DNA of 37,694 nucleotides from Deltaproteobacteria bacterium (GTDB lineage Bacteria > Desulfobacterota > Dissulfuribacteria > Dissulfuribacterales > QOAL01), in NCBI GenBank assembly GCA_026992735.1, contig JALWYO010000118.1:1-37694 (forward strand), given 5' to 3'. Below the pieces are notes generated by a model that was not told where the DNA came from, searched no databases, and worked only from the letters and a program-made list of their open reading frames with translations. This document shows positions 3,652-19,494 of this stretch, in pieces. Both the position numbers and the translations under genes were made by a program. The first letter of the stretch is position 1. The number at the start of each line of letters is the position of its first letter.

Positions 3652-4101
3652 ATGTTTAGGGGCAGATCAACCCATAACCTTGATGCCAAGGGAAGGCTTA
3701 GTATTCCTGCCAGGTTCAAGGATATTCTCAGGGCTAAGTATGATATGAAGCTCATTGTGACAAACCTGCCCTCCTGTCTTGCTGCTTACCCTGTTGAAGA
3801 ATGGAAAGCTGTTGAAGAACAGTTCAGCAGGTTCCGCTTTGGCCCTCCCAAGGTGCTTGCCTTTAAGCGTTATCTGCTGGGAGCTGCCATTGATTGTGCA
3901 CTTGATGGCCAGGGCAGGATCCTTCTGCCTGCAACTCTTCGTCAAGAGGCTGGAATTGTGAGGGAAGTAGTTCTGGTTGGCATGCTCAACTATTTTGAGA
4001 TATGGAGCAAGGATCTGCTTGAGAGTCAGTTGACGGAGACGAAAGAAAATTTTGATGCTATCAGCGATGACATCATTAAAGAATTCGGTATCGGGATCTG
4101 A
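3652..4101 (+). CDS. mraZ: transcriptional regulator MraZ
   Basis: MraZ is the first gene of the dcw cluster and a DNA-binding autorepressor of the operon with an AbrB-like double-psi fold. The 149-residue protein starts FRGRSTHNLDAKGRLSIPAR, the canonical first SpoVT/AbrB repeat with its DxKGR motif. The second repeat is LDGQGRILLPATLR, about residues 83-96, with the matching DxxGR motif. Length is typical of the family. AGAGG lies a few bases before the ATG. Its likely operator is visible directly upstream. The 3' end overlaps rsmH by about 50 bp, so translation of the two is coupled. Confidence 0.95.
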   Translation: MFRGRSTHNLDAKGRLSIPARFKDILRAKYDMKLIVTNLPSCLAAYPVEEWKAVEEQFSRFRFGPPKVLAFKRYLLGAAIDCALDGQGRILLPATLRQEAGIVREVVLVGMLNYFEIWSKDLLESQLTETKENFDAISDDIIKEFGIGI

Positions 4102-4990
4102 TCCTGCGGGGATACACGCTCCTGTTCTTGTCAGCGAGGTGATTGATGCCCTGTGCCCTTCTCCCGGAGATGTATTGCTGGATGCCACTGTTGGAATGGG
4201 AGGGCATTCTTCGCTGTTGTTGAAGCATGAGCCTGGCATCAAAAAGCTGCTGGCAATGGACTGGGATGAGCATGCTCTTGCCATGGCAAAAAAACGTCTC
4301 GGAGGCCATGGAAAGAGGGTCAGGTTTTATCAGGGCAACTTCCTTGATATGGATGCCATACTCCATGAAGAAGGCGAACCTGGTTTCAACGGGATACTCA
4401 TGGATTTGGGAGTCTCATCTTTTCAGCTTGACCAGTCTGGCAGAGGATTCAGTTTTTTAAGGGATGAGCCTCTGGACATGCGCATGGACCGTTCGGGTAC
4501 GATAACAGCTGCTGATATGCTGAACAAGTTGCCTGTTGAGCGCCTGGAGGAGCTGATACGGCTTTACGGCGAGGAAAGATGGGCAGGCAAGATTTCCAAG
4601 GCCATTCTGGCAAGAAGAAGCAAAAGGCCCATACTATCTACCAAAGAGCTTGCTGATATCATTGCTTCCTCGATACCAAAGCGTTTTCATCCAAAGAAAA
4701 TACATCCAGCCACAAGGACTTTCCAGGCGCTGCGTATAGCAGTGAACCGGGAACTTGAAAATTTGACAGGAGCCTTGGAAAAGGCAAGTGAATGTCTCCT
4801 GCCAGGGGGACGGTTGGTGGTGATAAGTTTTCACTCTCTCGAGGACCGGATTGTGAAGCACTATATCAAGAGGGACACCAGCCTGAAGGTGCTGACAAAA
4901 AGGCCTGTAGTTCCAGGTCCTGGAGAAACCGTTTTCAATCCAAGGGCCAGAAGCGCAAAACTTAGGGCCGCTGTCAAGTCAGAGCCATAA
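4052..4990 (+). CDS. rsmH: 16S rRNA (cytosine1402-N4)-methyltransferase RsmH (MraW)
   Basis: RsmH methylates N4 of C1402 in the 16S rRNA decoding centre using SAM. Diagnostic segments are HAPVLVSEVIDAL near the N-terminus, SAM motif I LLDATVGMGGHS, MDLGVSSFQLDQSGRGFSF, the DMRMD box, HPATRTFQALRIAVNREL and VVISFHSLEDRIVKHY. The C-terminus ends in the usual NPRARSAKLRAA. The family is typically about 310 residues, as here. The start is uncertain: TTG at 4052, ATG at 4055 and ATG at 4067 are all in frame inside the mraZ 3' end. GAAAG at 4041 favours 4055. Conserved homology begins about 20 residues later. Confidence 0.95.
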   Translation: MMLSAMTSLKNSVSGSDPAGIHAPVLVSEVIDALCPSPGDVLLDATVGMGGHSSLLLKHEPGIKKLLAMDWDEHALAMAKKRLGGHGKRVRFYQGNFLDMDAILHEEGEPGFNGILMDLGVSSFQLDQSGRGFSFLRDEPLDMRMDRSGTITAADMLNKLPVERLEELIRLYGEERWAGKISKAILARRSKRPILSTKELADIIASSIPKRFHPKKIHPATRTFQALRIAVNRELENLTGALEKASECLLPGGRLVVISFHSLEDRIVKHYIKRDTSLKVLTKRPVVPGPGETVFNPRARSAKLRAAVKSEP

Positions 4991-5005: not shown

Positions 5006-5365
5006 ATGACAAGCAAATCAGCCACTCTAAGGATGCCTCAGAGAAGGGTTTATTCGCCCCAAAACCGAAGGCGGAGGAAGGCGAGGCCTTCTATTTCGTT
5101 TTCTGTACCATGGTCTATGAAGACTGTTGCGGCAGTATTTTTAACCATTGCGCTCATTTCATTGTCTTTTTTTGCAAGCTACAAGATCAGGACCGTGGCT
5201 ATGGATACGCAGGTGCTTGAGGCACGATATCTTAACATTCAAAAAGAAAATGCACTTCTATCTGAAAAATATTCCAGCATGACCAGCCGGAAGCGACTGG
5301 CTGTCTTGGGTAAAAAGCTGGGACTGCATGCACCGGCAAAGGAGCAAGTCGTTACACTATACTAA
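5006..5365 (+). CDS. ftsL: cell division protein FtsL
   Basis: This is a small bitopic division protein of the FtsL family, which joins FtsQ and FtsB in the complex that activates septal peptidoglycan synthesis. The 119 residues have a basic cytoplasmic tail (QNRRRRKARP), one membrane segment at about residues 36-56 (TVAAVFLTIALISLSFFASY) and a periplasmic helix rich in charged and leucine heptads (VLEARYLNIQKENALLSEKY), a typical short coiled coil. It has a strong GGAGGTG ribosome binding site 8 nt before the ATG. Identification rests on position (rsmH-ftsL-ftsI) and architecture, because FtsL sequences are poorly conserved. A gap of 99 bp separates it from the ftsI-like gene. Confidence 0.85.
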   Translation: MTSKSATLRMPQRRVYSPQNRRRRKARPSISFSVPWSMKTVAAVFLTIALISLSFFASYKIRTVAMDTQVLEARYLNIQKENALLSEKYSSMTSRKRLAVLGKKLGLHAPAKEQVVTLY

Positions 5366-5464: not shown

Positions 5465-7054
5465 TTGACGAAGCGGACCACAATCCGGATTCTTGGGGCA
5501 GTAACCAGTTTGTTTTTTCTGGGCTTGATATTCTCAGGATGTTTCGGTGAAAAGGTCCCGGAGAGAGATGAAATGGAGGCTGATCTCCAGCCTGTCCCTG
5601 GCAGTGTTGTTTTAAAGACCTCTCTTAATAACAGGCTTCTTCACAGGTTGCCTATTGCAGACAGGACAGGGGCACTGTTGGCTGTATCCAGAGCGGATTC
5701 CTCTGGCAGGGTTGTGAGGTTTCATCCCAATGGTGGGCTCGGGCTTCCTGTGCTTGGCTATCTTGATAGTTATGGCAGAGGTCTTGAAGGCATAGAGTAC
5801 AGCTACGATGCTGTGCTTGCCTCCAGTGACCGCAAGCTGGTTGATGCGCTTTTTCTTTCCATTGATATAAAGGTCCAGGCTGAGACAGAAAAAAATCTCA
5901 GGTGGCAGATGAAGAGATTGAAGGCAGACAGGGGCTGTGAGATTATCATGGACCTTGAAAATGGCCAGATTCTGGCCATGGCAAGCCTGTCAAAAGACAA
6001 CACATCTGGAACAGGCACGCCAGAATTTTCCAATTATGGGATCAGGGAGGGCTTAAATCCCTGGGGATTGGTCATAAATCTTGCCTGGTTGATGCAGATC
6101 CAGGAACACCTTCAGGAGACCGGTCATGAGGCCGGCAATCTTAAGGGAAAAGACAATAAGCCTGCCCGCTTTAAAAAGGCATTTAATGTTCCATGGCACT
6201 GGATAGATGTTGGTGCTAAGGGCAAGCTCTGGACCAGATTGAAGACCAGAGACCTTGCGAGATTGCCCATGGACCAATCTATCTTAAAGCTTCTTATAAG
6301 GTTGGGAATGGGCCAGCCTACCGGTATTGATCTGCCAGGAGAACAGCAGGGCGGCCTGCCTGTGTCATTGCCCGTTTCAATGTCCGAAAGCATCGGGAGC
6401 GTGATAGACTCTGGTTTTAATGCCACTCCCCTGCAGACACTCTGTGTATTTTCTGCAATTATCAAGGCAGGCACCAGGCTCAGACCAAGCCTGGCAGTAA
6501 ACGGTGGGAAAAATAGCAGTATAGACTCATGTCCAGGGCTGTTCGATGTTACTGCGGTAAAGGAGTTTCTAAAGCGGGTTGGAAACGATCAAGGGCCATC
6601 CATTGCCTCGGTGACCATGACTACTGCTGCTGGCCACGTTGCTTTTCAAACCATAGGTATGGGAGTGTGGCCGTCAAAATCTCCGAGAATAAGTTATATT
6701 TCGGTCCTGGAAAATGCCAGGATAGATGCCAGCCAGAGGCGCGGGACTCTGGGCAGGACATCCCGTGTTGCCAGGCTTGCTGGATTGCAGCCCAGTGTGG
6801 CAGGGCCATTTAATATCAACGGCCGGAGCGCTGTCGTTGTTCGTGATGTTCAGAAAGCTGCTCTAGGTCTTGGAGCTTCCGGCGTTGTCATGCCTGACTT
6901 AAAGGGCAAATCCATGAGAAGTGCGCTGGAAATTGTCTCAGGCCTCGGGTTAAAGCTCAAGGTAAAGGGAGCGGGCTTGGTGAGGAAGCAGTATCCGAAG
7001 GCTGGTAAGCCAATAAAAAAGGGCGACAGTTGCACTATTATTTGTAAGCGCTGA
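5465..7054 (+). CDS. catalytically degenerate FtsI/PBP3-like protein with C-terminal PASTA domain
   Basis: The gene sits at the ftsI position. The 529-residue product keeps class B PBP landmarks: LPIADRTGALLAVS (usual RGxIxDRnGxxLA), GLEGIEYSYD, SIDIKVQAE, IIMDLENGQILAMAS, RLGMGQPTGIDLPGE..GGLP, ATPLQT and VLENAR. A PASTA domain occupies about residues 474-527 (VVMPDLKGKSMRSALEIV...). The three active-site motifs are gone. Where PGSTFKP should be there is NPWGLVI (198-204). The SxN segment is replaced by a shortened RLPMDQSILKLL. KTGT is replaced by TAAGHVA (387-393). It is also shorter than usual PASTA-bearing PBPs. The N-terminus is one hydrophobic segment ending FSGC (C26), either a lipobox or a membrane anchor. 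The start is TTG with AAGAGGG about 10 nt upstream. A scaffolding role in the divisome is inferred; transpeptidase activity is not expected. Confidence 0.85.
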   Translation: MTKRTTIRILGAVTSLFFLGLIFSGCFGEKVPERDEMEADLQPVPGSVVLKTSLNNRLLHRLPIADRTGALLAVSRADSSGRVVRFHPNGGLGLPVLGYLDSYGRGLEGIEYSYDAVLASSDRKLVDALFLSIDIKVQAETEKNLRWQMKRLKADRGCEIIMDLENGQILAMASLSKDNTSGTGTPEFSNYGIREGLNPWGLVINLAWLMQIQEHLQETGHEAGNLKGKDNKPARFKKAFNVPWHWIDVGAKGKLWTRLKTRDLARLPMDQSILKLLIRLGMGQPTGIDLPGEQQGGLPVSLPVSMSESIGSVIDSGFNATPLQTLCVFSAIIKAGTRLRPSLAVNGGKNSSIDSCPGLFDVTAVKEFLKRVGNDQGPSIASVTMTTAAGHVAFQTIGMGVWPSKSPRISYISVLENARIDASQRRGTLGRTSRVARLAGLQPSVAGPFNINGRSAVVVRDVQKAALGLGASGVVMPDLKGKSMRSALEIVSGLGLKLKVKGAGLVRKQYPKAGKPIKKGDSCTIICKR

Positions 7055-7206
7055 TGTTTTTCACAGGGTCAAGTGTCTGCTGTGCTGCTGCTGCCAAAGA
7101 ACTTCTTTCATAACCAGGTATGCTGTTTTTTTTAAGGGCTCAATAAATGGATCAGCGTTTTCATGCTTCAAACCAATGGTAAATCCGGCTACATGAGGTT
7201 TTTTTG

Positions 7207-10152
7207 ATGCAAGTAGATTTGTCAATCCTGCTGGAGAATACACAGGATGTTGTGGTAGAGAGGGGCAGGGGCAGAGGCCTCCCGATTACATCCGTGTGTT
7301 CGGATTCCAGAAAGGCAATTCCTGGTTCTCTGTTCGTTGCCCTTCCAGGAAGCAGGATTGATGGATCAGAATTTGTCTCAGATGCTGTGGCCCGCGGTGC
7401 TGTTGCGGTTTTTGTGCCTGATTCATCTGTAGACGACGCCCTTAGGCTTGTGCCTGATAATGTTGCTGTTCTGTCTTCCAGGCTGCCTAACCAGGTTCTG
7501 GGGCATCTTGCCTCTGCCTTTTACGGGCATCCCAGCCATTCATTGGAGGTTATCGGTATCACAGGTACCAATGGCAAGACAACCTGCTCGTTTTTAATAG
7601 AGAAGATTCTTCAGGCCGCAGGCCATCGGCCTGGCCTTTCAGGGACTATTTGCCAGAAGACAGGCACGGCACAGCATCCCTCGTCACTTACAACTCCTGA
7701 CGCGGTTTCTTTTCAGGAGTTTTTGGCCGCGATACGGGATGAGGGGTGCACTCATGCTGTTACCGAGGTTTCTTCTCACGGGCTGGTGCAGGGCAGGGTG
7801 GCCGGGTGCAGGTTCAGGGCAGCGGTATTCACTAACCTGAGCCATGATCACCTGGATTACCATAAAGACATGGAGAGCTATTTCCAGGCCAAAAAACTGC
7901 TGTTTTCCGCCTGTGCCCCGGAAATGGCAGTTATAAACATAGATGATCCCTATGGGGGCAGGCTATTGAAAGAGTACCGGGGTGCAAAGGTTTCATTTGG
8001 CCTGTCAGAACAGGCCATGGTAAGGCCAGACAGGTACGAGCTGGATATCAACGGCATAAAAGCTATGATAAAGATGCCGGGTCAGGTCATAGAGATACGC
8101 TCTTCTCTCATAGGGCTTCACAATCTTTCTAATATATTGGCTGCCACAGCAGTTGCTTATGTTCTTGGTATCGAGCCTGGCTATATCAGGCAGGGCATTC
8201 AAGCCCTCAGAGCTGTGCCAGGCCGCCTCGAACCTGTCGAGGCTCCCAGGGGTATTACTGCGCTGGTGGATTATGCCCACACTCCGGATGCCCTTCAGAA
8301 CGTCTTGTCTGGGCTTAGGGAGTTTGTTTCAGGCAGGTTGATTGTTGTTTCAGGCTGCGGTGGTGACAGGGACAGGACAAAGAGACCGGAAATGGCAAGG
8401 ATAGCTGCCAGGCTTGCGGATTTATGTGTTTTTACTTCTGACAATCCCAGATCAGAATCCCCTGGTGCCATTATTCAAGATATGCTGAACGGCATTGAGA
8501 ATGTGCCGAAGGCAGGAGTCAAGACCATTGTCAACAGGGAGGCAGCCATAAAATGGGCTGCAGAACAGGCCATGCCAGGTGATATTCTTCTGGTGGCTGG
8601 CAAGGGGCATGAAGATTACCAGTTGATAGGTGGCAGGACTATTCCGTTTGATGACAGAAAGGTCCTGTCTCAGGCATTTCGTGATCGGAAAGCTGTTGGC
8701 GTTTATCAACAGGATCGCAAGTTTCTGTTCAGTATGCAGCATGTTGCAGATGCCACTGGCGGCCAGCTTGTGCCTGGCAGCGGTGATGCATTGTTTTCAT
8801 CAATCAGCACGGACAGCCGCACAATACGCCCTGGAGAGCTTTTCTGGGCCATCAGGGGGGAACGCTTTGATGGCCACGCCTTTTTGGCTGCCGTGGCTGA
8901 CAAGGGGGCTGCAGGCGCCGTGGTAGAGTGGATTCCTTCAGATGCCCCGGAAGGTTTTCCATTGGTCAGGGTGACAGATTCCCTGTACAGCCTGGGAGAA
9001 TTTGCAAGATGGTACAGGAAACAGCTTGGATTCAAGGTGTTCGGTATCACAGGCAGCTGTGGCAAGACCACCACCAAGGAGCTGGTTGCCTCGGTGCTTT
9101 CCATGAAGTTCACAACTGCCAAGACAAAAGGCAATCTCAATAACCTGATAGGACTGCCCTTCACCATATTGAAAATTTCCCCAGATACTGAATGGGCAGT
9201 GCTGGAGATGGGTACCAATCAGCCTGGAGAGATCAGCCGGCTATGCCACATAGCAGTGCCGGATGCCGGTCTTATCACTTGTATCCAGCCGGTTCACCTG
9301 GAAGGTCTGGGAACTGTTGACAATATAGCAGCAGAGAAGTCTGCGCTCCTGGAGGCATTGCCTGCCAGTGGCACTGCGGTCATTAATATGGATGACAAAC
9401 TTATACGAAGCCGCATGTCCGGCCTTAAGTGCAATAATATCGTGGGATTTTCCTGCCGCAGTGGGGACATCGGAGAAAACTTGCCTCAAATGGTCAGGCT
9501 TATAAGTGCCAGGCAGGCCACCCATGGGCTTGAAGTGGATGTGGATGTCTCCGGGCAGGTGTTGAGTCTGAAGACCAGGCTCATGGGCAGGATAAACAGT
9601 TTCAATATTGTGGCTGCCGTGGCATCAGGTGTTGCACTGGGGCTGGATCTTGATCTTATAAAAAAGGGCATAGAGAAGGTCAGGCCTGCCGGGGCCAGGA
9701 TGAATCTTGAGCAGCTCCAGGGAGGCTGGCTGCTTCTTGACGATTCATACAACGCAAATCCCGTGTCCATGCAGGCTGCAATAGAGACAATGGGCGAAAT
9801 TGCCCAGGGAATCAGTAAAATTTTGATTCTTGGATCAATGCTGGAATTAGGGCCAATGGCCCCGGCATTTCATGAACAGGTTGGCGAAGTTGCTGCAATG
9901 GCACAGCCTGACATCCTGGTTACAGTAGGTAGTCTTGCTAGGCATTTGGCTTCAGGTGCAATAGCCGCAGGACTTCGTGAAGACAGGATTTTATCTTTTG
10001 ATGACAGGGAGCAATGCCTTGAATGGCTGGCTGGTGCAGAACAGGGATTTTTCAATGGCAACGCCAGGGCCGTGCTGGTCAAGGGGTCAAGAGGGATTGG
10101 CCTGGAAAGGATTGCAGGCCTTATCAGGCAGAGAGTACAGGATAGATATTAG
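7207..10152 (+). CDS. murE-murF: bifunctional MurE-MurF fusion: UDP-MurNAc-tripeptide synthetase / D-Ala-D-Ala ligase
   Basis: One 981-residue chain carries two consecutive cytosolic peptidoglycan-precursor ligases. The MurE half (about 1-490) adds meso-diaminopimelate to UDP-MurNAc-L-Ala-D-Glu. It has the P-loop GITGTNGKTT (about 118-127), the lysine in YFQAKKLLF likely to be carbamylated, and the meso-DAP specificity motif DNPRSE (about 413). The MurF half (about 510-981) adds D-Ala-D-Ala. It has the P-loop GITGSCGKTTTKE (about 613), KGNLNNLIGLP, LDDSYNANP (about 845) and LGSMLELG. No stop or frameshift separates the halves, and neither is missing a core motif, so both should work. The ATG at 7207 has GAGG 9 nt upstream; a TTG at 7204 is also possible. 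MurE-MurF fusions are known sporadically in bacteria. Confidence 0.95.
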   Translation: MQVDLSILLENTQDVVVERGRGRGLPITSVCSDSRKAIPGSLFVALPGSRIDGSEFVSDAVARGAVAVFVPDSSVDDALRLVPDNVAVLSSRLPNQVLGHLASAFYGHPSHSLEVIGITGTNGKTTCSFLIEKILQAAGHRPGLSGTICQKTGTAQHPSSLTTPDAVSFQEFLAAIRDEGCTHAVTEVSSHGLVQGRVAGCRFRAAVFTNLSHDHLDYHKDMESYFQAKKLLFSACAPEMAVINIDDPYGGRLLKEYRGAKVSFGLSEQAMVRPDRYELDINGIKAMIKMPGQVIEIRSSLIGLHNLSNILAATAVAYVLGIEPGYIRQGIQALRAVPGRLEPVEAPRGITALVDYAHTPDALQNVLSGLREFVSGRLIVVSGCGGDRDRTKRPEMARIAARLADLCVFTSDNPRSESPGAIIQDMLNGIENVPKAGVKTIVNREAAIKWAAEQAMPGDILLVAGKGHEDYQLIGGRTIPFDDRKVLSQAFRDRKAVGVYQQDRKFLFSMQHVADATGGQLVPGSGDALFSSISTDSRTIRPGELFWAIRGERFDGHAFLAAVADKGAAGAVVEWIPSDAPEGFPLVRVTDSLYSLGEFARWYRKQLGFKVFGITGSCGKTTTKELVASVLSMKFTTAKTKGNLNNLIGLPFTILKISPDTEWAVLEMGTNQPGEISRLCHIAVPDAGLITCIQPVHLEGLGTVDNIAAEKSALLEALPASGTAVINMDDKLIRSRMSGLKCNNIVGFSCRSGDIGENLPQMVRLISARQATHGLEVDVDVSGQVLSLKTRLMGRINSFNIVAAVASGVALGLDLDLIKKGIEKVRPAGARMNLEQLQGGWLLLDDSYNANPVSMQAAIETMGEIAQGISKILILGSMLELGPMAPAFHEQVGEVAAMAQPDILVTVGSLARHLASGAIAAGLREDRILSFDDREQCLEWLAGAEQGFFNGNARAVLVKGSRGIGLERIAGLIRQRVQDRY

Positions 10153-11232: not shown

Positions 11233-12683
11233 TGCAAAAGATGGATTTCACGGGCGCAAAAATAGCAGTTCTTGGAGTAGGCGAGGCAGGCCAGGCAGCA
11301 GCACGCTGGCTTCATTCCCGGGGTGCTGAGCTGCTCTGTTGTGATACTCTGGCTGTAAATGAATGGTCTCCGGAGTTTCTTGAATGGTGCAGGGCTTCTG
11401 GCATAAGGCTGTTGTGTGAGGACGATATGGACACTCAGGATGTGCCCAGCTGCCAGTTTGCAGTGGTTAGTCCCGGCATTCCACCCATTGCCAGGATGGT
11501 AAGGTCTTTCATGAAAAGAGGTGTCCCGGTCATTGGCGAACTGGCCTTGTCTGCATCCCTGTGGAAGGGCAGGCTTATAGGTATTACAGGCACCAATGGA
11601 AAGACCACCACCACGGCATTGACAGCTCACCTGCTTTCTTCTGCAGGTATTCCAAATGTCAAGGCCGGCAACATATCTCCACCCTTGTTCGAATGCATGT
11701 CACAGAAAAGTGAAGACATGACTGCAGTCCTGGAGATCAGTAGCTTCCAGCTGGAATATTTTCCTGGAGATTGGCCTGATGGCCTGATAAAGCCACGTTT
11801 TTCAACTGCCTGCATTCTTAACATAGCACCGGATCACATAGACAGACATGGAAACACGATGGAATATGCCAGGTGCAAGTTGAGGCTTTTGGAGTACCAG
11901 GGGCCTGGTGACATGGCAGTCCTGGGGCCTGTCGGCCAGGTTTCCATGCCGGATATGGATGCCGATATTTTCATGTTGCGTCCATCTGAAAGACATGGGC
12001 ATGGCGCTCACATGGATATTGCAGGCTCATGTCTTGCTATCGTATGGCCTGGAGGCGCTCGGGAAGAATATGATCTGTCGGGATGGAGGCTGTATGGCAG
12101 GCACAACCTGGAAAACCTGGCTACAGCTATTGTGGCAGCCAGACATGCTGGTGCAGGACACGATGCTGTTCAGAATGGTATCAATATCTTTCAGGCACCG
12201 GCTTACCGTCTCCAGAATTCCGGAACCTGGCGCGGGATACGGTTTATAAACGATTCCAAGGCCACCAATGTTGCAGCATTGATTGCAGCCCTGGAGTCTG
12301 TGCAGGGAGACGTGACCTTGATAGCCGGGGGCAGAGGCAAGGGAGAAGAGTTCAGCCGTATTGCAGAGTTTGTCCGTGCAGGTTCGAGTAATGGATACAA
12401 GGGAGGGATGCTTAAGTCCGCTGTCCTGATAGGCGAAGAAGCCGAGAGAATGGCATCTGTAATGCAGGGCATAGGTGTCAAGACGAAGGTGCTTTCAGGC
12501 ACAGACGGCGAGAAGACGATTCAAGAGGCAGTCAGGATTGCGGTTGCCATGAGCAGACCGGGCGATATCGTGTTGCTTTCTCCTGCCTGTGCGAGTTTTG
12601 ATATGTTTTCAAGTTACAGGCAACGGGGCAAGGCATTTGATAATGCTGTCAAGATCCTGGCTGATGGTGTTTTCAATGCTTAA
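11232..12683 (+). CDS. murD: UDP-N-acetylmuramoylalanine--D-glutamate ligase MurD
   Basis: MurD adds D-glutamate to UDP-MurNAc-L-Ala using ATP. The N-terminal Rossmann domain begins at FTGAKIAVLGVGEAGQAAA. The P-loop GITGTNGKTTTT lies at about residue 117, followed by the central-domain segment NIAPDHIDRHG and the C-terminal FINDSKATN and LSPACASFD motifs. At 483 residues it is slightly longer than the usual 440-460. The chosen ATG (11232) overlaps the mraY stop as TGATG; the reading frame is open further upstream inside mraY, but the conserved N-terminus fits this start. The next gene is murG, with which it overlaps, instead of ftsW. Confidence 0.95.
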   Translation: MQKMDFTGAKIAVLGVGEAGQAAARWLHSRGAELLCCDTLAVNEWSPEFLEWCRASGIRLLCEDDMDTQDVPSCQFAVVSPGIPPIARMVRSFMKRGVPVIGELALSASLWKGRLIGITGTNGKTTTTALTAHLLSSAGIPNVKAGNISPPLFECMSQKSEDMTAVLEISSFQLEYFPGDWPDGLIKPRFSTACILNIAPDHIDRHGNTMEYARCKLRLLEYQGPGDMAVLGPVGQVSMPDMDADIFMLRPSERHGHGAHMDIAGSCLAIVWPGGAREEYDLSGWRLYGRHNLENLATAIVAARHAGAGHDAVQNGINIFQAPAYRLQNSGTWRGIRFINDSKATNVAALIAALESVQGDVTLIAGGRGKGEEFSRIAEFVRAGSSNGYKGGMLKSAVLIGEEAERMASVMQGIGVKTKVLSGTDGEKTIQEAVRIAVAMSRPGDIVLLSPACASFDMFSSYRQRGKAFDNAVKILADGVFNA

Positions 12684-15268: not shown

Positions 15269-16199
15269 AGACCTTTCCAGTATCAAGGACCTGGATGTCA
15301 AGAGAGATGTGGATCTGTCCAGGTGTACAACGTTCAGGATAGGCGGCAAGGCCGGTCTGTTCGTGATACCCCGGTCTATTCAAGCCCTGGAAGGGGCGGT
15401 GAGAAGTTTTTGTCATGCTGGTATCCCCTTGAGGATTCTGGGGAACGGGAGCAACCTCCTGATCTCTGATGCTGGTGTGCCTGCGGTCATAAATCTTTCA
15501 GGCCTTTACAAGCTTGAAGTCCATGGAGACCATTTGGTTGTCTATGCCGGTCTGCCTATATCCAGGCTGTTAAGATGGTGCCTTGAAAATGGATATGCTG
15601 GAATGGAGTGCCTGGCAGGCATCCCTGCCAGCCTTGGAGGCGCATTGTTCATGAATGCAGGCGCTGGCGGCTGTGAAACCGGAGACTTTGTTCAGGAGAT
15701 ACTCGTTACAGGTGCTTCAGGCAGTTCCTGGCTGGATGTGTCAGCGCTGGATTGCCACTACCGCAGTATTCACATAGAGCCGGGAACCATAATTTCAGCC
15801 CTTAAGATACCTCTCAATCATGAAGGTGTGTCTGGTGACAGCGCTGAAAAAAAGGCGCTTTATCCATGTAATGCGCAGAAGGTGCTGCACAAAATAAGGC
15901 ATGTGATGCATAGGCGAATAAACACGCAGCCTCTTGGAGAGCCCAGTGCCGGCTGTGTATTCAGAAATCCCGAAGGCAGATCCGCATGGTCTCTTATTGC
16001 CGCATGCGGCCTGCAGGGCTTTTGTAATGGCAGGGCACAGGTATCCAGGAAACATGCAAATTTCATAGTTAACAAGGGTGGTGCAGGTTTCTGCGAGGTC
16101 AGGGATTTGATATCCATTGTAAAAGAGAAGGTGCTGGAACAGACCGGCATCCTTCTAAAAGAGGAAGTGGTAATCTGGGAAAATGCGGTTCTCCACTAA
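15249..16199 (+). CDS. murB: UDP-N-acetylenolpyruvoylglucosamine reductase MurB
   Basis: MurB is an FAD enzyme that reduces UDP-GlcNAc-enolpyruvate to UDP-MurNAc with NADPH. FAD-binding segments are TTFRIGGKAGLFVIP, ILGNGSNLLISDAG, and GIPASLGGALFMNAGAGG (about 124-141). The proton-donor loop reads SAGCVFRNP with Cys236 where many MurBs have serine, and the late catalytic glutamate lies in LLKEEVVIW. At 316 residues, without the E. coli-type insertions, it resembles type II MurB. It overlaps murC by 20 nt and ftsQ by 17 nt. No ddl gene separates it from ftsQ. Confidence 0.95.
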   Translation: MLQPLYRDLSSIKDLDVKRDVDLSRCTTFRIGGKAGLFVIPRSIQALEGAVRSFCHAGIPLRILGNGSNLLISDAGVPAVINLSGLYKLEVHGDHLVVYAGLPISRLLRWCLENGYAGMECLAGIPASLGGALFMNAGAGGCETGDFVQEILVTGASGSSWLDVSALDCHYRSIHIEPGTIISALKIPLNHEGVSGDSAEKKALYPCNAQKVLHKIRHVMHRRINTQPLGEPSAGCVFRNPEGRSAWSLIAACGLQGFCNGRAQVSRKHANFIVNKGGAGFCEVRDLISIVKEKVLEQTGILLKEEVVIWENAVLH

Positions 16200-17031
16200 C
16201 AGGGAAATAAGGCGAAGGCGTAGTCAGCAGGGCCAGGAATCAAATTGGAAGAAAAGGACTTCAAAAATCCTGTTAGTCTTCTTTTTGTTGTTTGCCCTGG
16301 TCTCTGGAATAGCAGGTACTGTTTATGGGGTAAAGAAGTGGATGCATTCCTGCTCCTACTTCTTTATATCATCGATAAAGGTTCAAGGTGCCAGCAGGCT
16401 GACCAAAAAGGATATAGTAGATTTCAGTGGTATCAAGCAGGGTGATAACATATTTTCTGTTGATCTCAAGGCAGTTTCCGGGAGGCTCAACAGTCATCCA
16501 TGGATAAAGTTTGCAGAGGTGGAAAGGCGCCTGCCTGATACCATTTTGATCCGGGTGGACGAAAGGCAGCCTGTCGCGCTGGCCAGGGTAAATGGCACCC
16601 TGTTTCTGGTGGACAAGGATGGGACATGTTTTAAGCCTCTGGAGGAGTCAGATGCGTTTTCAGCACCTGTAATTACTGGAATAGGTGATGAGAATGTCAA
16701 GAATTCTGGAAACATAAAAGGCATTCCAGGTGTGGACAGCGCTAAAATGGCAGATGCACTGAGGATAATCAAGATGTCCCGGGCAGGTGTAAGGGCCCTT
16801 GGATACAATAATATAAGCCAGATCGATTTCCCGGATAAACAGGAAGTGGTTATATACACTGCTGACAAAGCCGTTCCATTTCATCTGGACAGGAGGGATA
16901 TCAAGCATCAGTTTTACCGGGCGGAGAAGATACTTTTCCAGCTGTACAATTCCGGACAATATCCCAGGGTTGTCAGTGTGACAGTAGATTATGGGAAGGA
17001 CATGGCCCTTGCCAGGATAAAGAAGAAGTGA
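16183..17031 (+). CDS. ftsQ: cell division protein FtsQ
   Basis: FtsQ (DivIB family) is a bitopic division protein that bridges early and late divisome parts and binds FtsL/FtsB. It has a basic cytoplasmic tail (REIRRRRSQQG), one membrane helix at about residues 28-50, and a POTRA domain (FFISSIKVQGASRLTKKDIV ... NSHPWIKFAEVERRLPDTI). A beta domain follows, starting with IRVDERQPVALARVNG and LVDKDGTCF. The length of 282 is typical. It starts inside the murB 3' end. The stop (TGA) is 3 nt before the ftsA ATG. Confidence 0.93.
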   Translation: MRFSTNREIRRRRSQQGQESNWKKRTSKILLVFFLLFALVSGIAGTVYGVKKWMHSCSYFFISSIKVQGASRLTKKDIVDFSGIKQGDNIFSVDLKAVSGRLNSHPWIKFAEVERRLPDTILIRVDERQPVALARVNGTLFLVDKDGTCFKPLEESDAFSAPVITGIGDENVKNSGNIKGIPGVDSAKMADALRIIKMSRAGVRALGYNNISQIDFPDKQEVVIYTADKAVPFHLDRRDIKHQFYRAEKILFQLYNSGQYPRVVSVTVDYGKDMALARIKKK

Positions 17032-17034
17032 TGA

Positions 17035-18264
17035 ATGGTTGAGAATACCTGTGACATAGTAGTAGGCCTTGACATAGGCACCACCAAGATCTGCGCTGTG
17101 GTGGGGGAACTTTCCGATGACGGTGTGGAGATAATTGGGGTAGGCAGTCATCCGTCAGTTGGCCTTAGAAAAGGCGTTGTCGTCAATATAGACAGCACCG
17201 TCAATTCCATCAGGTGTGCTGTCGAAGAGGCTGAACTGATGGCAGGCTGCGAGATAACATCTGTCTATATAGGTATTGCCGGCAGCCATATAAAGGGCCT
17301 GAACAGCCATGGAGTCATTGCCGTCAAGGGTGACGAGGTCGCTGAGGAAGACGTGGAAAGGGTGATTGATGCGGCCAGGGCTGTTGCCATTCCCATGGAC
17401 CGGGAGATTATACACATACTGCCCCAGGAATACATTGTGGATGACCAGGGTGGTATCCTGGACCCTGTCGGCATGATGGGCGTCCGTCTTGAGGCCAAGG
17501 TGCATATAGTTACAGCTGCGGTAACAGCTGCCCAGAATCTTGTTAAATGTGCAAACAGGGCAGGTTTGGAAGTGGAAGATATTGTACTCCAGCCACTGGC
17601 ATCGTCAAAGGCAGTCCTTACCGATGAGGAAAAGGAGATCGGGGTAGCTTTGGTGGATTTCGGTGGTGGCACAACTGATCTTGCCCTGCTCAGCGAAGGC
17701 GCTATAAAACACACGGCTGTTCTCGGCCTGGGCGGTAACAACCTGACCTACGATATATCCGTAGGACTGAGAACCCCCATGAATGACGCAGAGAAGATAA
17801 AGGTGAATCACGGGACCTGTTTGGTATCCATGGTGGGGCGGGACGAGATGATAGAGGTTCCCAGTGTTGGTGGCAGAAAGCCCAGGCAGCTTTCCAGGCA
17901 TATCCTTGCAGAGATATTGGAGCCAAGGATAGAGGAGATATTTACCCTGGTGGATCAGGAGATACAGCGCACCAGGCTTAAGGACCTGTTGGCTTCGGGA
18001 GTAGTGATTACAGGTGGTTCCGCCGCTTTGCCAGGTGTGTGTGAAATGGCTGACCAAATTTTTCAGCTTCCAGCCAGAATAGGGGTTCCCAGCAACATTT
18101 CCGGCCTGGTGGATGTGGTAGCCAGTCCCATGTATTCTACGGCCGTGGGATTGATACTGTTTGGTTTTGAAGACCGTTCACGGAGTTCTGGGACTTTCAA
18201 TAAGCAGGGTGAGAGTCTGATCACCAGGATGGCGGGTAAAATGAAATCTTGGTTCGGCATTTAA
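17035..18264 (+). CDS. ftsA: cell division protein FtsA
   Basis: FtsA is an actin-like ATPase that tethers FtsZ to the membrane and signals to the septal synthases. Actin-fold motifs are GLDIGTTKICAVVGE (phosphate 1), the SHA/1C region GCEITSVYIGIAGSHI, VDFGGGTTDLALL (phosphate 2) and GVVITGGSAALPGV (adenosine). The final residues RMAGKMKSWFGI form the amphipathic membrane-targeting helix. At 409 residues it is complete. It lies between ftsQ and ftsZ with gaps of 3 and 24 bp. Confidence 0.97.
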   Translation: MVENTCDIVVGLDIGTTKICAVVGELSDDGVEIIGVGSHPSVGLRKGVVVNIDSTVNSIRCAVEEAELMAGCEITSVYIGIAGSHIKGLNSHGVIAVKGDEVAEEDVERVIDAARAVAIPMDREIIHILPQEYIVDDQGGILDPVGMMGVRLEAKVHIVTAAVTAAQNLVKCANRAGLEVEDIVLQPLASSKAVLTDEEKEIGVALVDFGGGTTDLALLSEGAIKHTAVLGLGGNNLTYDISVGLRTPMNDAEKIKVNHGTCLVSMVGRDEMIEVPSVGGRKPRQLSRHILAEILEPRIEEIFTLVDQEIQRTRLKDLLASGVVITGGSAALPGVCEMADQIFQLPARIGVPSNISGLVDVVASPMYSTAVGLILFGFEDRSRSSGTFNKQGESLITRMAGKMKSWFGI

Positions 18265-18288: not shown

Positions 18289-19494
18289 ATGTCGTTTGAA
18301 TTTGTAGAGAATAATGGTCTTTCAGCAAAGATAAAGGTTATTGGCGTTGGCGGTGGCGGCGGTAATGCTATTAACAATATGATAGCTTCTGAACTCATGG
18401 GAGTAGAGTTTATAGTTGCCAACACCGATGCCCAGGCGCTGGAAATGTCCAGGGCAGACACAAAAGTTCAGCTGGGCAGAACCCTTACAAAGGGGCTTGG
18501 AGCAGGAGCCAAGCCTGAAGTGGGCAGGGAGGCTGCTGAAGAAAGTGCCGACGAGATAAAGAAGGTTCTTGAAGGAAGCGACATGGTGTTTGTTACTGCA
18601 GGCATGGGTGGCGGTACGGGTACAGGCGCAGCTCCTGTAATAGCAGAGATAAGCAAGGAACTTGGTGCCCTGACAGTTGCTGTTGTAACCAGGCCGTTTG
18701 GCTTTGAAGGAAAGAAAAGGGGGCGCCAGGCAGAAGAGGGGATTGAGCGTCTGAAAGATGTGGTGGATACCATAATCACAATACCGAATGACCGTCTCAG
18801 GTCCCTGGCCCAGCCCAATACCCCTTTCCTGGAAATGTTTAAGAAGGCAGATGAAGTATTGTATTTTGCAGTCAGGGGTATTTCAGACCTCATAGTTGTA
18901 CAGGGGTATGTCAACGTAGATTTTGCAGATGTCAGGACAGTGATGGCAGAAATGGGCATGGCCCTCATGGGTACAGGTGTTTCAGCAGGAGACCGCAGGG
19001 CAGTCGAAGCTGTGCGAATGGCTATAGCGAACCCTCTCCTGGAAGATGTATCCATCAGCGGGGCCAGGGGAATCCTCATGAACATAACTGCCAGCAGTTC
19101 CACCCTTAGCATGGAAGAGGTGGACCAGGCCTCGTCGCTGATCCATGACGAGGCTCATGATGATGCAAACATCATATGGGGCACGGTATTTGATGACTCC
19201 ATGGGAGAAGAAATACGCATAACTGTAATTGCTACCGGAATTGGGAGGGAGCGGGTAATATCCACTCCAGAAGATTCTACTGTTACCCGCATCGAAGATG
19301 TCCGGAAGAAAAAACACGAGGAAGAAAAGAAGAGCAGCGAAGAGGCTCCGCAGATAACCCAGATGTCACAGCACGAAACCATAGCGGTAGAGAGGCAGTG
19401 CATGCCTGTCAGTAAAAAGCCTTTTGCAGGTTTTGATTCCCTGGATCAGGAAGAGCTGGAAATACCGGCATTTATGCGCAAGAAGGCGGATTAA
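18289..19494 (+). CDS. ftsZ: cell division protein FtsZ
   Basis: FtsZ is the tubulin-like GTPase that forms the Z ring. It has [13 protein letters not shown], the tubulin signature [29 protein letters not shown], and the T7 catalytic loop [11 protein letters not shown]. The C-terminal tail ends [12 protein letters not shown], a good FtsA/ZipA-binding peptide. A short charged linker ([15 protein letters not shown]) precedes it. Length is 401. AGAGGGAGAG precedes the ATG. It is the last gene of the dcw operon, and a GC hairpin follows. Confidence 0.98.

Follow-up and report, generated by a model that had tools for sequence, protein, structure and literature searches.

FtsW and FtsI are considered universally essential for septal peptidoglycan synthesis, with a reported exception in C. 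difficile (PMC10693644). In C. difficile, vegetative cells divide with no canonical FtsW/FtsI pair, the only SEDS-class B PBP pair that is essential is RodA-PBP2, and the enzymes of the dcw cluster are specialised for sporulation (PMC10693644). In B. subtilis, a catalytically inactive form of PBP 2B, an engineered point mutant relying on PBP 3, supports division, and PBP 2B has a structural role (PMC5656894). In S. aureus, the peptidoglycan-binding PASTA domains of PBP1 are needed for septal plate formation, and transpeptidase activity is also kept (PMC9426605). None of these precedents is a natural, order-wide dead FtsI, and no earlier report of one was found in the literature (open-licence papers).

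Here, we analysed a 37,694-nt stretch of DNA (the window), part of a 2.3-Mb draft genome of the order Dissulfuribacterales, phylum Desulfobacterota, in which the gene at the ftsI position encodes a homologue of FtsI that has lost its catalytic motifs. C. difficile is the nearest precedent: the genomes of the order also have no canonical FtsW/FtsI pair, and also have RodA-PBP2 as the sole SEDS-class B PBP pair, but here the SEDS gene of the dcw cluster is gone, a dead FtsI homologue survives, and the lineage is Gram-negative. As for PBP 2B, a class B PBP would serve division without catalysis, here, in contrast to the engineered mutant, after a natural, order-wide loss; as in PBP1, a PASTA domain is carried by a divisome class B PBP. 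The window protein resembles FtsI/PBP3 in its dcw position, head motifs, transpeptidase-fold stretches, and C-terminal PASTA domain, the last as in other Desulfobacterota FtsI, and differs from it in having no SxxK, SxN, or KTG motif, in residing in a genome without FtsW, and in having, as does the rest of its family, a lipoprotein-type N-terminus.

The dcw cluster of the window has the order mraZ, rsmH, ftsL, ftsI-position gene, murE-murF fusion, mraY, murD, murG, murC, murB, ftsQ, ftsA, and ftsZ. The ftsI-position gene (5465-7054, + strand) has a TTG start and encodes 529 aa in an uninterrupted reading frame (529 codons, zero internal stops), and is placed between ftsL (5006-5365, + strand; assigned from position and from blastp matches to other dcw clusters) and the murE-murF fusion (7204-10152). 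With the single sequence, the top match among solved structures in the PDB is FtsI (3e-16); with a family profile, P. aeruginosa FtsI ranks first (2e-46) and MrdA far below (1e-25); and, in an FtsI tree, the group of the window protein is nested among Desulfobacterota FtsI. On these comparisons the window protein is assigned as a descendant of the septal class B PBP FtsI, homologous to FtsI rather than to other PBPs, in agreement with the first-pass annotation, which had also recognised the intact frame. AlphaFold2 models were of low confidence (pLDDT 42 with a seven-sequence input, five of them PBP2, and pLDDT 34 with two orthologues), and both were set aside. The murE-murF fusion encodes 982 aa; the two genes are also fused in G023, G024, and family f25, and are separate, in the same order, in G022. 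Elsewhere in the window, an ORF at 1157-2257 combines a dual-specificity-phosphatase-like N-terminus with a Cys-rich C-terminal part.

A Pfam search of the 529-aa protein detects a PASTA domain (residues 474-522; 6884-7030, + strand; PF03793, E 3.1e-11) and the Transpeptidase domain in part only (residues 272-344; 6278-6496, + strand; PF00905, E 6e-8), the latter being a retained stretch with GMGQPTGIDLPGEQQG and conserved columns. A head/pedestal remnant (5642-5824, + strand) retains R61..D66R67.G69, R85..P88, and G98..G106..G109.E111; its conservation is as in active FtsI, yet it is shorter than in long homologues.

The three transpeptidase motifs are missing from the protein and from its orthologues throughout the order. 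When 40 orthologues, drawn from 11 families of Dissulfuribacterales, are aligned with 28 dcw FtsI from other families, none of the 40 carries SxxK, SxN, or KTG. Specifically, when compared with 26 active-type FtsI of the phylum, EPGSTFK (SxxK) falls on NPWGLVI (residues 198-204; 6056-6076, + strand), SSN falls on WTR (residues 256-258; 6230-6238, + strand), and gaps take the place of the KTGT block around TMTTAAGHVA, the region in which most gaps lie and where the KTG(T) position reads TAAGHVA (residues 387-393; 6623-6643, + strand). The first-pass annotation had read the SxxK and KTGT positions in the same way; it had described the SxN block as missing with a deletion, and here the motif is indeed absent, but the column is substituted, not simply deleted. 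Outside the order, SxxK and SSN are kept in 64 of 68 FtsI of the phylum, comprising 26 of the 28 FtsI in the alignment (25 of which also have KTGT) and 38 of a further 40 genomes. Intact FtsI is seen solely in these other families; sister genomes with intact motifs, which the first-pass annotation had proposed as a sign of sequencing error or recent pseudogene formation, were not encountered within the order. The window protein is predicted to be unable to catalyse transpeptidation. No ftsI was detected in G027, G033, or G037, which is explained by assembly gaps: locus L175 starts inside murE/F, and G033 and G037 have no true mraY match. In family f21, the G092 FtsI has KTAT in place of KTGT, though ftsW is present, and the G055 FtsI frame is split into ORFs of 428 and 257 aa, again though ftsW is present (f21 loci L103 and L217/L254).

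Nei-Gojobori dN/dS values for close pairs are 0.14-0.40 for the ftsI-position gene, near those for the adjacent active ligase murE/F (0.12-0.23; 0.06-0.30 for rsmH), indicating that the gene is, by this measure, under purifying selection. The branches of the pseudo-FtsI in the FtsI tree are long, which argues that constraint is partly relaxed. These long branches, together with severe shrinkage of FtsI in families f35 and f39 (below), would be consistent with a decaying pseudogene or a sequencing or assembly error; we consider this extremely improbable and reject it, since it is contradicted by the dN/dS values and by identical motif loss in open frames across 11 families, in independent genomes. 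Conservation within the window's family is highest in the head, the PASTA domain, and the stretch GFWP..RRGTLG, and lower in the former active-site zones and linkers; because the compared FtsI set is phylum-wide, the contrast for the active-site zones is conservative. Among the 40 orthologues, GLGQxTGIDLPGE and the head motifs are still conserved, and W402 and Y411 are newly conserved. The newly conserved residues could point to the old active site having been replaced by another, or to a different enzymatic function, but the zones of the former active site are comparatively poorly conserved, and the transpeptidase region of the 40 orthologues contains neither a Lys nor a Ser/Lys pair that reaches 70% conservation. 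A relocated active site is therefore unlikely; we reject a relocated Ser/Lys pair and regard a new function of any kind as very improbable. The order-wide motif loss, the dN/dS values, and the lack of a conserved Ser/Lys pair support the proposal of the first-pass annotation that the gene encodes an intact, selected, non-catalytic divisome protein.

The N-terminus of the window protein (MTKRTTIRILGAVTSLFFLGLIFSGC; 5465-5542, + strand) reads, by pattern match alone, as a lipoprotein signal and not as a plain membrane anchor: it comprises TKR..R, a hydrophobic stretch, and FSG directly preceding C26. A lipobox-like site of this type (G at −1 and C at +1, then F or L, closing the hydrophobic stretch) is present in all 27 readable N-termini from family f1, which is the window's, and most of family f2 (g6, g22); the same pattern matches 0 of 68 FtsI of other families and 0 of 15 other members of the order, and in most of the order's other families the N-terminus is a plain hydrophobic membrane helix without a lipobox. 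In E. coli, whether or not the residue after the lipoprotein Cys is Asp bears on outer-membrane placement. As the residue here is Phe or Leu, not Asp, an outer-membrane location is possible for the lipoprotein form, which would be a lipid-anchored protein of the periplasm. The PASTA domain, noted in the first-pass annotation as preserved, is preserved in the window protein but is kept in only part of the order, and most members without a lipobox are also without PASTA. Neither PASTA nor the lipobox can account for the mechanism in general, since several families of the order lack them.

The combination of lipobox and PASTA in the window's family, with PASTA better conserved there than in the wider FtsI set, and the loss of the FtsW-binding context, would also fit a protein that has left the divisome and has become a peptidoglycan-binding or peptidoglycan-sensing envelope protein, for example a tether between outer membrane and peptidoglycan, merely still encoded in the dcw operon. 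This is improbable: the FtsI head motifs are kept, in the clusters examined the gene is still flanked by ftsL and murE, and the members with a transmembrane-type N-terminus and no PASTA have the same core. We infer a divisome role for the dead FtsI from its position, its ancestry, and its retained partners FtsL, FtsQ, FtsB, FtsA, and FtsZ. Specifically, FtsL, FtsQ, FtsA, and FtsZ are all present in dcw clusters of the order (in the window, ftsQ at 16183-17031, ftsA at 17035-18264, and ftsZ at 18289-19494, all + strand), and an FtsB-like DivIC is present in 32 of 32 near-complete genomes.

The partner that is missing is FtsW. The survey covered 41 genomes of the order, of which 32 have a completeness of 90% or more and a contamination of 5% or less, and draft completeness limits claims of absence; each of the 41 has exactly one SEDS gene. 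A SEDS tree that includes FtsW and RodA of E. coli places the genes of the order on the RodA side (branch support 100). The single SEDS gene adjoins PBP2 in every locus examined, mreB is a few kb upstream of it in the loci where coordinates were compared, and PBP2, which has SxxK, is the only strong class B PBP. In E. coli and most of the phylum, ftsW is located at the murD-murG position; in the window, murD and murG overlap (12589-12683, + strand) without a SEDS gene between them, and the five clusters of the order in which this region was inspected all have murG immediately after murD. Within the limits of the drafts, FtsW is assigned as absent from the genomes of the order, and the remaining SEDS-class B PBP pair is assigned as RodA-PBP2. 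The first-pass annotation had missed the absence of ftsW, the motif-less or shrunken FtsI of four more families, the lipoprotein-type N-terminus, and the restriction of PASTA to part of the order. In G059, rodA is split into two overlapping frames (L227:3590-4123 and 3859-4785), so that the two SEDS hits in this genome are one gene. Some genomes also encode a single-domain transpeptidase of 430 aa that has SIFK, SIN, and KTGT (L003:1432-2724, − strand; G000:C34); it occurs in a large part of families f1 and f2 and in a few others, not across the order.

LpoA and LpoB are outer membrane lipoprotein activators. The window protein is like them in that it is non-catalytic, is putatively lipid-anchored in the periplasm, and could have a class A PBP as its target, and differs from them in deriving from FtsI; in a Pfam scan of 14 members, the LpoA/LpoB families are not among the matches listed. 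The class A PBP (PBP1A) might build the septum alone, with the lipid-anchored dead FtsI as an Lpo-type recruiter or activator and with RodA-PBP2 staying with elongation. Nearly every genome of the order has one class A PBP gene, the lipoprotein form is found in most of f2 as well as in the window's family, and C. difficile divides with a class A PBP, PBP1 (PMC10693644). We nevertheless consider this arrangement rather unlikely, in view of the plain membrane helix without a lipobox in most other families of the order and of the retention, in all genomes, of RodA-PBP2 with MreB, which could serve both processes.

The best explanation, which we judge moderately probable, is that the dead FtsI is a non-catalytic divisome scaffold and that RodA-PBP2, the single class A PBP, or both make the septal peptidoglycan. 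In this mechanism, once FtsW was lost, the membrane helix and active site of FtsI would no longer be needed for an FtsW-FtsI synthase. The dead FtsI would stay as a non-catalytic adaptor, with its head region kept and, where present, its peptidoglycan-binding PASTA domain. In other bacteria, the head region of FtsI is the part facing FtsQLB. The dead FtsI may help mark or regulate the septum, where RodA-PBP2, brought to midcell, and/or PBP1A would polymerise and crosslink septal peptidoglycan.

Paired losses are also found outside the order. In families f28 and f25, each represented by two genomes, FtsI is full-length and lacks the motifs; families f39 and f35 (two genomes each) have FtsI remnants at the ftsI position, of 336-340 aa and 248-267 aa, respectively; and all four families have a single, RodA-type SEDS gene and a dcw cluster without ftsW. 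Four further families without a dcw ftsW thus also have motif-less or shrunken FtsI, indicating that the two losses go together. A possible exception is G046 (f12), a fragmented genome with intact FtsI in which only RodA was detected; given this fragmentation and the two SEDS genes in two f12 members, we tentatively attribute it to a gap in the assembly. At the murD-murG position of f35, an ORF of 265 aa with multiple membrane spans is present (L170:2088-2897 and L171:2110-2910, both − strand); we considered it as a degenerate FtsW, an assignment that is not supported, as SEDS homology is undetectable.

A concatenated tree of six dcw proteins (FastTree) groups the order with f25 (1.00) and f28 with G074 (0.86), and places f39 alongside two genomes whose motifs are intact (0.94), a topology that implies three or four independent losses. 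Family f28 is beside the order in the FtsI tree (support 100) and in the SEDS tree (support only 54); this placement may be due to long branches, and a count of three or four events is therefore tentative. We tentatively propose, at somewhat below an even chance, that FtsW was lost and FtsI turned non-catalytic, and in places lipid-anchored, several times independently in Desulfobacterota, and that these FtsZ-using rods build the septum by RodA-PBP2 steered by a dead FtsI.

FtsW-FtsI is the standard enzyme pair building the dividing wall. In a whole order of sulfur-metabolising bacteria, and in four other families as well, FtsW has disappeared along with the active site of FtsI, and the remaining divisome proteins are kept together with a dead FtsI. 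An order without FtsW and with a dead FtsI suggests division by the machinery that other rods use for elongation. These bacteria provide natural separation-of-function material for the roles of FtsI besides catalysis and for an elongasome synthase in septation. Both are testable in a cultured member of the order, Dissulfurimicrobium hydrothermale Sh68T (Desulfobacterota, Dissulfuribacteria, Dissulfuribacterales), a motile short rod (PMC8780430), and the prediction is that division there would be insensitive to FtsI-specific beta-lactams.
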